From: an uncultured Acidobacteriaceae bacterium
Lineage (GTDB): Bacteria > Acidobacteriota > Terriglobia > Terriglobales > Acidobacteriaceae
Assembly: GCA_903904755.1 (NCBI GenBank)
Contig: CAIVDV010000070.1
Span: 1 to 36,766, forward strand
Direction of reading: 5' to 3'
DNA: 36,766 bases
Below are positions 11,334 through 15,408 of the stretch, one piece after another; positions within the stretch are counted from its first letter, which is position 1; each line of letters begins with the position of its first letter. The position numbers and the translations under genes were made by a program. Below the pieces are notes generated by a model that saw only the letters and a list, made by a program, of their open reading frames with translations, was not told the origin of the DNA and did no database searches.

Positions 11334-13424
11334 ATGCGGATGGTGAAGCTTTTGCTGGCGGCGGTGGTCGCGCTGGGGTTGACGGGCTGGGCGGGAGCGC
11401 AGACGGTGACGAGCGAGGCGGATGGGCCGCATGTGCATGTGCAACTGGTGGTTCCCTACGGCGGACTTGCGCTGGCGGGTCAGAAGACCGAGGGCGGGCT
11501 GTATTTCAAGCTGGAGCCGGGCTGGCATGTGTACTGGAAGAATGCTGGCGACTCGGGTGAGGCGCCGCGGATGAAGTGGACGCTGCCGGATGGGATTACG
11601 GCGGAGGGCTTGCAGTTTCCTGCACCGAAGCGGTTGCCGCTGGGGCCGCTGATGGATTTTGGGTACGAGGATGAGGTGCTGTTTCCGTTTGCGCTGGATG
11701 TGGCTCAGACAACGAAGCCGGGCGAAGCGGTGGCAAGCGCGACAGTGAAGTGGCTGGTGTGCCGGGAGGTTTGCATCCCAGGCAAGGCTGAGCTGGGGCG
11801 GAAGCTGATGGTGATGGACCATTTGCTGAAGGATGCGCCGATGCTGGGGCCAGACAACGCACTGTACGCGCGGCTGGCGGGGAGGTTGCCGACTGCGTTG
11901 CCCGCGAGTGCGAAGGCGGTGTATGCGGCGACGGCGACGGGGTACAAGCTGGCGGTGCTGACGGGGCAGAAGGAGACGACTGCTTCCTTTTTCCCGGCGG
12001 ATCAGGGAGTGATTGATAATCCGGCGGCGCAGAAGGTGAGCCTGGTGGATGGCGGCCTTGTGCTGGAGTTGAAGAAGGACGCGACGGCGACCGCTGCTGC
12101 AACGCAGTTGGCCGGGGTGATTGAGCTGAGCGGCGGGCGGGCGTATGAGATTGCTGCGGTGGCGGGCAAGGTGCCGGCGGCTGGGGCGGCGGTGAATTTT
12201 GGTGAGCTAAGCAAGGCGGTGGGTCTGGCGTTTCTGGGTGGAATCATCCTGAACCTGATGCCGTGTGTGTTTCCGGTGTTGTTTTTGAAGGGGCTTGCGC
12301 TGGTGAACTCGTCGGCGGCGGACAGGAAGAAGATTCGCGGGCATGGTGAGGTGTATGCCACTGGGATTGTGGTGAGCTTCTGGGCGCTGGTGGCGGCGCT
12401 GCTGGGGCTGCGGGCGGCGGGGGCAACGCTGGGCTGGGGATTCCAGTTTCAGTCGCCGGTCTTCCTTTCGCTGATGGCGGGGCTGCTGTTTTTCCTGGGG
12501 CTGAGCCTGGCCGGGCAGTTTGAGATTGGGTTGAGCCTGACGAGCGTGGGCGGGGAGCTGGCACAGAAGGAAGGGTATGCGGGCAGCTTCTTTACCGGTG
12601 TGCTGGCGGTGATTGTGGCGACGCCGTGCACGGCTCCGTTTATGGGCGTGGCGGTGGGCTATGCGCTGCAGCAGAGTGCGGTTGTGACTTTTGCGATCTT
12701 TACCGCACTGGGGCTGGGGCTGGCGGCACCGTATCTGGTGCTCTGCTTCCAGCCGGCGTGGACGCGGCTGTTGCCGAGGCCGGGCGTGTGGATGGAAGTG
12801 CTGAAGCAGGCGACGGCGGTGCCGATATTTGCCACGGTGATTTGGCTGGTTTGGGTACTGGCGCAGACGCGCGGGGCAACGGGCGTGGCGGCAGTGCTGG
12901 GGCTGTTTCTGCTGCTGGCGGTGGCGGGCTGGGTGCTGGGGCGTTGGCCGGGGAAGCGGATTCCGGCGGCTGTGGCGGTGCTGGTGATGGCTGCGGGCGT
13001 GGCGGTGGCGGTATATGGGGTAGTGAAGCTGGCCAGCCCGGTGACGGCCGAGGCGCAAACCGGGAGCGCAGCAGGGAATTGGGAGCCGTGGTCACAGGCC
13101 AAGGTGGACCAGTACCGGGCGGCGGGGCGGCCGGTGTTTGTGGACTTTACGGCGAGCTGGTGCCTGAGCTGCCAGGTGAACGAGCGGGTGGCGCTGAGGA
13201 CCGATGAGGTGCAGGCGGCGTTTGCCGCGAAGAATGTGGCGCTGCTGAAGGCGGACTGGACCAGCCACGATGATGCGATTACGCAGGCGCTGGCGGGGAT
13301 GGGGCGGAGCGGCGTGCCGGCGTATGCGTTGTATCGAACTGGAACGACGGGGGATGCGACGCTGCTGCCGGAAGTGCTGACGAAAAATATTGTGCTGGAT
13401 GCGCTGGACAAGATAGGCAGGTAA
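11334..13424 (+). CDS. DsbD-like thiol:disulfide interchange protein
   Basis: This membrane protein would carry electrons from cytoplasmic thioredoxin to the periplasm. The 696-residue product has a signal peptide ending near Ala22, a periplasmic N-terminal DsbD-alpha-like domain with a C-x3-C pair (Cys143 and Cys147 in 'LVCREVCIPGK'), and about eight transmembrane helices from residue 290 to 560. The helices hold the buried cysteines 'LNLMPCVFPVLF' and 'VATPCTAPFMG'. A C-terminal thioredoxin domain has the active site WCLSC (Cys610, Cys613). This three-part order is that of DsbD/ScsB. The ATG at 11334 follows a GGGAG site and gives a proper signal peptide; an upstream in-frame start at 11286 overlaps the preceding gene and is rejected. 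Confidence 0.9.
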   Translation: MRMVKLLLAAVVALGLTGWAGAQTVTSEADGPHVHVQLVVPYGGLALAGQKTEGGLYFKLEPGWHVYWKNAGDSGEAPRMKWTLPDGITAEGLQFPAPKRLPLGPLMDFGYEDEVLFPFALDVAQTTKPGEAVASATVKWLVCREVCIPGKAELGRKLMVMDHLLKDAPMLGPDNALYARLAGRLPTALPASAKAVYAATATGYKLAVLTGQKETTASFFPADQGVIDNPAAQKVSLVDGGLVLELKKDATATAAATQLAGVIELSGGRAYEIAAVAGKVPAAGAAVNFGELSKAVGLAFLGGIILNLMPCVFPVLFLKGLALVNSSAADRKKIRGHGEVYATGIVVSFWALVAALLGLRAAGATLGWGFQFQSPVFLSLMAGLLFFLGLSLAGQFEIGLSLTSVGGELAQKEGYAGSFFTGVLAVIVATPCTAPFMGVAVGYALQQSAVVTFAIFTALGLGLAAPYLVLCFQPAWTRLLPRPGVWMEVLKQATAVPIFATVIWLVWVLAQTRGATGVAAVLGLFLLLAVAGWVLGRWPGKRIPAAVAVLVMAAGVAVAVYGVVKLASPVTAEAQTGSAAGNWEPWSQAKVDQYRAAGRPVFVDFTASWCLSCQVNERVALRTDEVQAAFAAKNVALLKADWTSHDDAITQALAGMGRSGVPAYALYRTGTTGDATLLPEVLTKNIVLDALDKIGR

Positions 13425-13444
13425 GAATTTAGCATTGACCCAAC

Positions 13445-13519
13445 CTTCCGACACCATCCACCCTTGCGGATGGCCCCCTTGATGCCGGGAGATTGGAGCC
13501 CGCTGGCATAGCCACCGGG
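13445..13519 (-). ncRNA. Structured element, copy 1
   Basis: The outer stem is CTTCCG (13445-13450) with CGGGAG (13486-13491). The apical stem is CCATCC (13454-13459) with GGATGG (13468-13473) and an 8-base loop. CCCCCTT lies at 13474-13480. The accessory hairpin is CCCG/CGGG at 13499-13519 with an inner GGC/GCC. This is the weakest outer stem of the six. Confidence 0.4.
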
Positions 13520-13576
13520 AGCATATAGAAGTTTTTACGCGATTGCCTGAGCACTCCCCGCACGGGCAATGATCGA

Positions 13577-13641
13577 TCTGTCCTCCGTCAGAAATCACCG
13601 ACAGCGAACTGTCGATGCCCCCTTTCCTGCCGGAGGACAGA
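13577..13641 (-). ncRNA. Structured element, copy 2 (divergent stems)
   Basis: The outer stem is TCTGTCCTCCG (13577-13587) with CGGAGGACAGA (13631-13641), 11 of 11 pairs. The apical stem is CGACAG (13599-13604) with CTGTCG (13609-13614), whose loop reads TTCG on the minus strand. CCCCCTT lies at 13618-13624. Its stem sequences share little with the other copies, yet the fold and the C-run are kept. Confidence 0.45.
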
Positions 13642-13702
13642 ACGTACCGGGAAGCGAACTTTACCGGGGAAGGCGAGCACACTTCCTTCAAAACTACCCT
13701 GC

Positions 13703-13770
13703 TTCCTGCATAAACCATCCTTGCGGATGGCCCCCTTTTATGCGGGAAACAGGGGGCCCGGCGAACCGGG
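13703..13770 (-). ncRNA. Structured element, copy 3
   Basis: The outer stem is TTCCTGCATAAA (13703-13714) with TTTATGCGGGAA (13737-13748), 12 pairs with one wobble. The apical stem is CCATCC (13715-13720) with GGATGG (13725-13730), loop GCAA on the minus strand. The accessory hairpin CCCGG/CCGGG lies at 13757-13770, loop TTCG on the minus strand. Confidence 0.45.
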
Positions 13771-13786
13771 AGCCCAAACTTTTAAT

Positions 13787-13862
13787 CTCTACCTCCTCTC
13801 ACCATCCAACCTCTCGGTTGGCCCCCTTGATGAGAGGAGATAGAGGTTCCCGGCGAACCGGG
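13787..13862 (-). ncRNA. Structured element, copy 4
   Basis: The outer stem is CTCTACCTCCTCTCA (13787-13801) with TGAGAGGAGATAGAG (13831-13845), 14 of 15 pairs. The apical stem is CCAACC (13806-13811) with GGTTGG (13816-13821), loop GAGA on the minus strand. The accessory hairpin CCCGG/CCGGG lies at 13849-13862, loop TTCG on the minus strand. Confidence 0.45.
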
Positions 13863-13906
13863 ATCTTGGTAGCCGGGGGACGGCGCAAACCTGGGGAGAT
13901 TCTTAT

Positions 13907-13982
13907 CCCTATCTGCTCCCACCATCCATCCTCTCGGATGGCCCCCTTGATGGGAGCAGATAGGGAACCCGGTAGAACCGGG
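13907..13982 (-). ncRNA. Structured element, copy 5
   Basis: The outer stem is CCCTATCTGCTCCCA (13907-13921) with TGGGAGCAGATAGGG (13951-13965), 15 of 15 pairs, with compensatory changes relative to copies 4 and 6. The apical stem is CCATCC (13926-13931) with GGATGG (13936-13941), loop GAGA on the minus strand. The accessory hairpin CCCGGT/ACCGGG lies at 13968-13982. Confidence 0.45.
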
Positions 13983-14011
13983 AGCCCGTGGAAAGCTGAG
14001 GAGCGTTTTAC

Positions 14012-14086
14012 CTCTACCTCCTCTCACCATCCAACCTCTCGGTTGGCCCCCTTGGTGAGAGGAGATAGAGACCCGGCAAAAGCCGG
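14012..14086 (-). ncRNA. Structured element, copy 6
   Basis: The outer stem is CTCTACCTCCTCTCA (14012-14026) with TGAGAGGAGATAGAG (14056-14070). The apical stem is CCAACC (14031-14036) with GGTTGG (14041-14046), loop GAGA on the minus strand. The accessory hairpin CCGGC/GCCGG lies at 14073-14086. It is nearly identical to copy 4 in the core but not in the flanks. Confidence 0.45.
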
Positions 14087-14093
14087 AGCTCGA

Positions 14094-14265
14094 AACGAGT
14101 TCAAGCCAGGCCAGGGTGACTGGGTAGCTCTTACGCAGTCATTATTAGCAAGTGGTGTGCCATTTGCTGCGCTTGGGCTGTGGATTTCGTAAGGCTATTT
14201 TTTGCAATCAGTTACGGCTGAATTTCCCCCAAGTGCAGGGAAAGATAGCGGGCTTGTGTGTCTGG
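14094..14265. other. Noncoding stretch between the array and the glycosyltransferase
   Basis: This is the remainder of the 889-bp convergent gap between the DsbD-like and glycosyltransferase genes. I see no coding sequence, tRNA or clear promoter in it. It contains a T-run (ctattttttgc) near 14193 without a preceding strong stem. Confidence 0.5.
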
Positions 14266-14293
14266 ATTCCAGACTCCAGACAGAGTCTGGAAT
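14266..14293 (-). terminator. Hairpin downstream of the glycosyltransferase
   Basis: ATTCCAGACTC (14266-14276) and GAGTCTGGAAT (14283-14293) form a perfect 11-bp stem with a 6-base loop, 20 bases after the glycosyltransferase stop codon on the minus strand. No T-run follows, so termination would be imperfect and could allow readthrough into the structured array. Confidence 0.45.
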
Positions 14294-14313
14294 CTGGAAT
14301 GCAGAAGAGATGC

Positions 14314-15408
14314 TCATGCAGCGGCTTGGGAAATGGGAAGGGAGACCTCTCGGGCTGCAGCCATTGCCGGAGTGGGAAAGGTTTGAGCTGGGGTGGCCTG
14401 GATTGGGATGAGGTCGGCGGCGAGGTTTGCCGGGATGCGGTTCCTGAGGTAGTGGAGGATGCCTGCCGGGCGGAGGAGCCACTTCCACGAGAGGCGGAGG
14501 ATGCTCTCAATCTCCCGCCGCTTCACGGAGACCAGGCTCCAATGGAGTGCAAGAGCGGATTCGACGATGGCAGAGAAGGGAACACCCAACTGCTCGCAGA
14601 TGAGTATCTTGTTGCAGAGATTGACGCGGTAGTAGATGTGGGTTTGAATGCTCATGCTGATGCAGTTGTTCCAGCGGGTGCGATATGCCAGTTGGTTCGG
14701 CAGGAAGAGCGCGTCGCCGGCGCCGACAAGTCGGATCCAGAGGTTGGTGTCCATGGAGCGAGTCATGCCATCCTTGTTGCGGAGCCCCCAGCCGCCAATG
14801 GCGCGGAGGGTGTCGCGATGGCAGGCAACCTGGATGGGAGTGCCGATGGGTGCCTGATCGCGCAGCATGTGATTGAGCAGCTGACGTGATGCCATGACAA
14901 CCGGCTCAGAGGCAATGGTTGGGGTCATGGAGAGGGGCTGCAGTTGCTCGGTCATGTCTTGAGCGCGGCAGGTAACGATCACCGGGGACTGTCCTGCGCG
15001 GCGTGCCTGGAGGAGGCCATGCGCCATGGTGGCCAGGCAGTCTGGAGTAAGCCAGTCGTCGTCATCGATGAATTTGATCCAGGTACCTGTGGCATGGGGC
15101 AAGGCGAGGTTGTTGGCCGCGCTTTGTCCGACACTGGATTCGGTGCGAATGGTTTGAACGTCGGGGAAGGTGGCGAGCAGGGAAGGAGTCTCGTCGGTGG
15201 ATGCGTCGTCGACAACGATGATCTGGCACGGGCGGGTTTGGTTGAGAGCACTTTCCACGGCGCGGCGGAGCATGGCTGGGCGGTTGTGGGTTGCGATGAT
15301 AACGGTCCAGGTGATGGGTTCATCCGCAGGAGGGGCAGTGGATTCCAGGTCTGCGGATGCGTTGGAATTCACAGGCAACGGGGAGCGAGAGTTCTCAAAG
15401 TTTTTCAT
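14314..15408 (-). CDS. Family 2 glycosyltransferase
   Basis: The 364-residue protein has a GT-A fold start near residue 33: 'TVIIATHNRPAMLRRAVESAL', then 'IIVVDDASTDET' and the metal-binding acidic run 'KFIDDDDWLTPD'. These are standard for family 2 transferases, which move a sugar from a nucleotide donor to a polysaccharide, glycolipid or protein. The first 32 residues are a low-complexity leader. The C-terminal 130 residues are helical without strong transmembrane segments. No other surface-polysaccharide genes are nearby. Base composition is visibly less G-rich than its neighbours, suggesting recent acquisition. No Shine-Dalgarno sequence precedes the ATG; a TACTTA box lies four bases upstream, so a leaderless start is possible. 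Confidence 0.85.
   Translation of the reverse strand: MKNFENSRSPLPVNSNASADLESTAPPADEPITWTVIIATHNRPAMLRRAVESALNQTRPCQIIVVDDASTDETPSLLATFPDVQTIRTESSVGQSAANNLALPHATGTWIKFIDDDDWLTPDCLATMAHGLLQARRAGQSPVIVTCRAQDMTEQLQPLSMTPTIASEPVVMASRQLLNHMLRDQAPIGTPIQVACHRDTLRAIGGWGLRNKDGMTRSMDTNLWIRLVGAGDALFLPNQLAYRTRWNNCISMSIQTHIYYRVNLCNKILICEQLGVPFSAIVESALALHWSLVSVKRREIESILRLSWKWLLRPAGILHYLRNRIPANLAADLIPIQATPAQTFPTPAMAAAREVSLPISQAAA

Follow-up and report, generated by a model that had tools for sequence, protein, structure and literature searches.

RNAs of the CsrB/RsmZ type show many copies of a short purine-rich motif from the hairpins of a single RNA, and CsrB acts in this way as a decoy for CsrA; the motif that CsrA recognizes has a conserved GGA, placed mostly in the loops of hairpins with few pairs (as outlined in PMC7652899). 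Multicopy sibling small RNAs are established elsewhere: LhrC1-5 and NgncR_162/163 are made of homologous units, and are described as using single-stranded or CU-rich regions to pair with the mRNAs that they target (in the accounts of PMC9973317 and PMC5880928). The four CcsR1-4 sRNAs of Rhodobacter sphaeroides belong to one protein-sRNA operon, and RNase E releases them from a precursor that they share with an mRNA (as sketched in PMC10253847). Among palindromic DNA repeats, REP palindromes carry a GTAG or CGTC tag at one end (PMC3733652, in outline); their recognition is dealt with in PMC8266576.

The locus described here is a run of six hairpin units at 13440-14086 of the window (the whole 36,766-nt stretch of DNA analysed), in a convergent intergenic gap, and is best read on the minus strand. 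Like the CsrB/RsmZ decoys, it repeats a short purine-rich motif from one hairpin to the next; unlike them, its motif is GGGGG with no GGA, and it sits in the internal loop of long stems. With LhrC1-5 and NgncR_162/163 it shares the multicopy homologous units (six of them here), but in the array it is an internal loop, made of G on the favoured strand, that stays constant. The likeness to CcsR1-4 is one of organisation; the protein of that operon is a DUF1127 protein, while the array has a glycosyltransferase gene upstream. The CcsR1-4 motif, CCUCCUCCC, is C-rich, in contrast to the G-rich favoured strand of the array. REP/BIME and TIR repeats resemble it in having directly arrayed hairpin units at similar spacing, and one congener has a Y1 gene in the corresponding gap; unlike REPs, which are dispersed, the array unit was found at one locus, and its copies have no foot tag in common.

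Arrangement of the six units

The first-pass annotation placed the array between convergent genes, and the gene ends bear this out: the dsbD-like gene (plus strand) ends at 13424, and the family-2 glycosyltransferase gene (minus strand) ends at 14314. The features are as follows, with unit scores from a model, R1, that was built without c2; the score given for c2 comes from an unfiltered search of the window.

14314-15408, minus strand: family-2 glycosyltransferase gene, upstream of the array and on the same strand
14012-14086, minus strand: unit c6, large hairpin 14012-14070 and small hairpin 14073-14086 (5′ on minus); R1 80.8 bits
13907-13982, minus strand: unit c5, large hairpin 13907-13965 and small hairpin 13968-13982; R1 79.1 bits
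13787-13862, minus strand: unit c4, large hairpin 13787-13845 and small hairpin 13849-13862; R1 80.9 bits
13697-13770, minus strand: unit c3, large hairpin 13697-13754, in which the bulged A is not clear, and small hairpin 13757-13770; R1 64.7 bits
13577-13667, minus strand: unit c2, large hairpin 13577-13641 and larger-looped CCGG hairpin 13647-13667; R1 28.3 bits
13440-13519, minus strand: unit c1, large hairpin 13440-13496 and interrupted small hairpin 13499-13519; R1 74.1 bits
11286-13424, plus strand: dsbD-like gene (DsbD_N, DsbD_TM, Thioredoxin_7), convergent with the array

On the minus strand, each unit begins with a small CCGG-type hairpin. The long hairpin comes next; its outer stem has about 17-18 positions and leads to a 6-by-1 internal loop, an apical stem and a tetraloop; short A/U-rich linkers lie 3′ of most hairpins. 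From c1 to c6, the large hairpins start 137, 120, 90, 120, and 105 bases apart. The 5′ side of the internal loop (minus strand) is AGGGGG, between a flanking A and a C, in every unit, and the invariant CCCCCTT (AAGGGGG on the minus strand) originally reported is present in the internal loop of all six. Opposite AGGGGG there is one bulged A in five of the six; c3 has no clear bulge.

The minus-strand tetraloops are also as first described, with GAGA in c4-c6, GCAA in c1 and c3, and UUCG in c2. Two other features vary more than that description allowed. The 6-bp apical stem holds for five units, that of c2, the most diverged, having 9 bp; and the small hairpin, given as CCCGG/CCGGG, has this form in c3, c4, and c5, with CCGGC/GCCGG in c6, an interrupted stem in c1, and CCGG/CCGG round a larger loop in c2.

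Between c2 and c1, a weak hairpin can be drawn at 13541-13571 (TTGCC/GGCAA round GGGGAG on the minus strand), possibly a decayed unit.

Covariation and occurrence of the unit

The six-fold element is real and structurally constrained. The compensating stem changes that had been cited for it are genuine; the apical stem of c1 is CCATCC/GGGTGG, with one wobble. Counted in the folding register over all six copies, which are paralogues from one locus with c4 and c6 nearly identical, and on a structure derived from folds of these same sequences (so that independent events are fewer than cells), 123 of 126 cells are paired (shuffled mean 88), and in 16 of the 21 pairs both partners have changed (shuffled mean 6.5), a number equalled in none of 5000 shuffles. 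For this count c2 was scored by script in the RNA-folding register, because MAFFT alignments misplaced it by one base. With c2 left out (c1 and c3-c6), 98.1% of cells are paired, and 12 of 21 pairs are changed on both sides (shuffled mean 4.1; equalled in 0 of 500 shuffles); shifting the partner by 1-3 columns in these five copies brings pairing down to 37-56%. RNAalifold on the six copies gives 24 pairs, 12 of them double-changed, with several broken cells, from an alignment in which c2 is out of register.

Averaged over pairs of copies, sequence identity stands at 1.00 for the AGGGGG loop; each outer arm (15 bases) has 0.55, and the tetraloop has 0.47. Taken with the pairing counts, these values mark the structure and the internal loop as the conserved parts. 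Since no homologue was found, the covariation is limited to the six paralogues.

In agreement with the earlier failure to name a family, no match at the gathering threshold was obtained anywhere in the window for the 4227 Rfam 15 families. Seven matches below the Rfam thresholds fall within 13400-14200, the best being to mir-2329, a microRNA precursor model (34.1 bits, where the threshold is 90; E 6.3e-05). In the genome of origin (4.22 Mb, 83 contigs), a DNA search with c4 returned four copies, all in the array, and R1 returned the array at one locus together with one stray 18-base match (E 1.6); whole-genome R1 searches miss c2 even in this genome, and diverged relatives could be overlooked by them.

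The acidobacterial homologues that the first-pass annotation had hoped to reach with such a model did not appear: R1 found no array outside the genome of origin in any of five genome sets (100 relatives; 399 of the class; 398 of the family; 396 of the phylum; and 41 relatives, with more candidates scored), which overlap and each include that genome in the count. Weak single matches outside it were obtained in 3 genomes (of 100), 6 (of 399), 1 (of 398), and 2 (of 396). In the 41-genome set, 8 of the 40 other genomes had weak matches; these nine matches (E 0.037 to 0.32) are within chance expectation for E values up to 0.5.

Nine weak loci were inspected (L011, L012, L013, L047, L048, L049, L102, L108, and L109), with L050, L051, and L110-L117 left out. 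L011, L012, L047, and L049 all lie inside open frames, which are 255 to 603 codons long. One of these, L012, belongs to the same order and has AAGGGGG and part of the outer stem (21 bits), but RNA folding does not yield the unit structure. L013, L048, and L102 are without the loop, and L108 and L109 come from loci containing long open frames. An unfiltered scan of L011-L013 and L047-L049 for further copies found no array.

In a collection of species genomes, described as covering 84,980 species, an exact-pattern scan had three matches, all without outer stems; the pattern requires the CCANCC apical stem and would miss c2-like units, and the collection may omit the genome of origin. The exact pattern had no match in viral contigs, nor did blastn find one in phages and plasmids, and among the papers listed in literature searches there was no account of the array. 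The array is probably a new RNA family, a minus-strand cluster so far known from one genome.

The gap in which it lies is a variable site, as judged from its length in congeners and from the lack of a match to the glycosyltransferase at their dsbD loci. Full-length dsbD matches occur in 13 of 14 congeners; as far as the retrieved DNA extends, the order of prfB, the CoA-binding gene, and dsbD is kept, and rarA faces dsbD. Eight of the 13 loci reach rarA, with dsbD-rarA gaps of ~35 to 940 nt between alignment ends, only ~35 to 60 nt in four of the eight. The 13 congener dsbD loci contain no R1 match better than E 0.19, and no match to the window's glycosyltransferase, which in the genus has partial matches only (≤42% identity, own paralogues included).

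Strand and proposed function

A minus-strand RNA, first argued for from the tetraloops, is favoured by stability, tetraloops, and most wobbles, but not by z-scores, which do not separate the strands. The minus strand is the more stable in all six copies (in c4, -37.4 vs. -28.3 kcal/mol); its apical loops are GNRA or UUCG throughout; and G-U cells on it outnumber A-C cells by 11 to 2 (5 to 2 by column). Folding z-scores run from -2.8 to -6.9 on the minus strand (200 shuffles for these units) and from -2.6 to -7.9 on the plus strand, and c3, c5, and c6 have their stronger z-scores on the plus strand, which counts against a minus-strand RNA cluster. The minus strand is likely the RNA strand; a bias of this kind would suit single-stranded DNA folded into hairpins too. 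A consensus scan of 13300-14400 found no sigma-70-like promoter or intrinsic terminator. A relaxed promoter script picked out one 7-of-12 site upstream on the minus strand (14271-14242), which was judged too weak.

Our preferred reading, put forward tentatively, is a minus-strand cluster of six sibling small RNAs, all of which offer a partner the same purine-rich internal loop. The six units would be paralogous small structured RNAs that arose by tandem duplication, transcribed from the minus strand either on a transcript of their own or within the 3′ portion of the glycosyltransferase mRNA. This precursor may then be cut within the A/U-rich linkers to release the units, and it is these linkers that make processing from a longer precursor plausible. 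The internal loop, with AGGGGG facing a single A, would be the recognition site, and the tetraloops would merely cap the stems; with the site repeated along it, one RNA could bind several copies of one partner.

The constancy of the internal loop, set against apical loops that vary, suggests that a purine-rich loop of preset shape is recognized, in the simplest case by a protein. The partner would most likely be an RNA-binding protein, sequestered in the manner of the CsrB/Rsm decoys. It is probably not CsrA, since the loop has no GGA and the genome of origin (97.49% complete) has no match to the CsrA family PF02599; the same search had matches in three of 14 control genomes (E. coli, B. subtilis, and T. 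maritima).

If the array is transcribed, it represents an uncatalogued RNA family in which strong covariation has come from within-genome duplication alone, and its conserved letters are predicted to be the likely binding site. Structured arrays confined to one species can escape comparative RNA searches, since these depend on homologues.

Alternative readings

Base pairing is an alternative to protein binding: the units might be sibling sRNAs processed from one precursor, with the AGGGGG loop or the C-rich parts serving as seed. We regard this as possible but rather unlikely. The multicopy siblings known elsewhere provide a precedent, as does the release of CcsR1-4 from a precursor shared with an mRNA (in the outline given by PMC10253847), for which the glycosyltransferase mRNA might serve likewise, and the short A/U-rich linkers after most of the array hairpins are in keeping with it. 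However, the invariant letters lie in an internal loop between two strong stems rather than in an apical loop or a free tail, and the described action of LhrC4, in which a CU-rich loop is set against an AG-rich Shine-Dalgarno region, has the opposite sense (PMC5880928, in part).

A DNA explanation is unlikely, somewhat more so than base pairing. It would make the array an orphan set of REP/BIME or TIR repeats that a Y1 (RAYT/TIRYT) transposase had mobilised or abandoned, acting as folded single-stranded DNA, which could favour G-T on one strand as well as RNA could favour G-U. Such a gene is found in the right place in one relative: the syntenic dsbD-rarA gap of congener G011 (L054, ~564-1501; L073) contains a Y1_Tnp (RAYT-like) gene with palindromic repeats. 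The genome of origin itself has three Y1_Tnp matches above the family cut-off, one of which (L076 1077-2284, contig C15) is a RAYT-like gene with hairpin units repeated in direct orientation on either side of it, at spacings of 131, 741 (across the gene), 134, and 105, close to the spacing of the array. However, the three are on contigs C15, C9, and C57, and none is on C70, the contig of the array.

The other two Y1_Tnp matches, L096 1367-2602 (C57) and L089 1287-1948 (C9), lie between long inverted repeats, whose arms measure 40 nt (95%) and 31 nt (97%). This arrangement resembles the TIR-flanked type, as outlined in PMC3733652.

A control makes the contrast with REPs plain. A REP-like unit taken from beside the genome's own Y1 gene was found at 23 places on 16 contigs, four of them beside that gene (the matches mostly cover ~50 of its 90 bases), whereas the array unit was found at one locus only. 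No tetranucleotide, read by eye in the array sequence, is common to the feet of the six copies; only c3, c4, and c6 have GTAG at the 3′ foot or close to it. Beside 15 Y1 loci (3 in the genome of origin, 12 in congeners), the best R1 match was a loopless perfect hairpin (17.1 bits, E 0.011). The array has none of the three marks of a REP family, which are many dispersed copies, an end tag, and an adjacent cognate Y1 gene. The scattered REP-like repeat that the first-pass annotation had itself named as the competing outcome is weakened by the 23-place control, and is still a rival. A decayed, immobile repeat is possible, since some Y1 classes lack the usual tag, one of them in Acidobacteria: class 3, present there among others, is described as having repeats without GT[AG]G (PMC6006769, in part).

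A bolder reading is that the array represents a new class of multivalent regulatory RNA acting through the AGGGGG/A internal loop rather than the apical loops, in its boldest form as a six-fold decoy for the ribosome and its anti-Shine-Dalgarno sequence; this seems to us quite doubtful. The 3′ end of 16S rRNA reads CCUCCUU, with which AAGGGGG is predicted to be able to pair with one G-U.

It is improbable that the array, lying between convergent genes, is simply a 3′ UTR or a structural barrier, stopping transcription or protecting mRNA without a partner in trans. Its location between such genes and its stable hairpins on either strand would suit this role, but the consensus scan found no terminator-like site, dsbD and rarA are separated by only ~35 to 60 nt in half of the measurable congeners, and a barrier would leave an invariant AGGGGG loop within diverged stems unexplained. 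Marginally less probable again is a plus-strand RNA downstream of dsbD whose CCCCCUU loops pair with Shine-Dalgarno sequences in the manner of LhrC: CCCCCUU is complementary to the Shine-Dalgarno-like AAGGGGG, the CU-rich loop of LhrC4 is described as working in that way (PMC5880928, in part), and in three copies the plus-strand z-scores equal or exceed those of the minus strand, but the plus strand is the less stable in every copy, and the tetraloops and most wobbles point to the other.

Two further readings were rejected. The open frames across the array, at 13092-13718 (minus strand, 208 aa) and 13569-14192 (plus strand), have no Pfam match, and coding would leave the compensating changes unexplained. 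A reading as a Shine-Dalgarno sequence plus start codon would fit only part of the array, AUG coming directly after the apical stem in c1, c4, c5, and c6 only. The array also does not match type III toxin-antitoxin systems with ToxI-like RNAs, in which the toxin gene is directly downstream of the repeats; here dsbD, on the opposite strand, is downstream of the array on the minus strand, and the 208-aa frame is the one without a Pfam match noted above.

A separate palindrome, which does not resemble the array units and has no T run, is present at 14264-14307, just 3′ of the glycosyltransferase stop codon.
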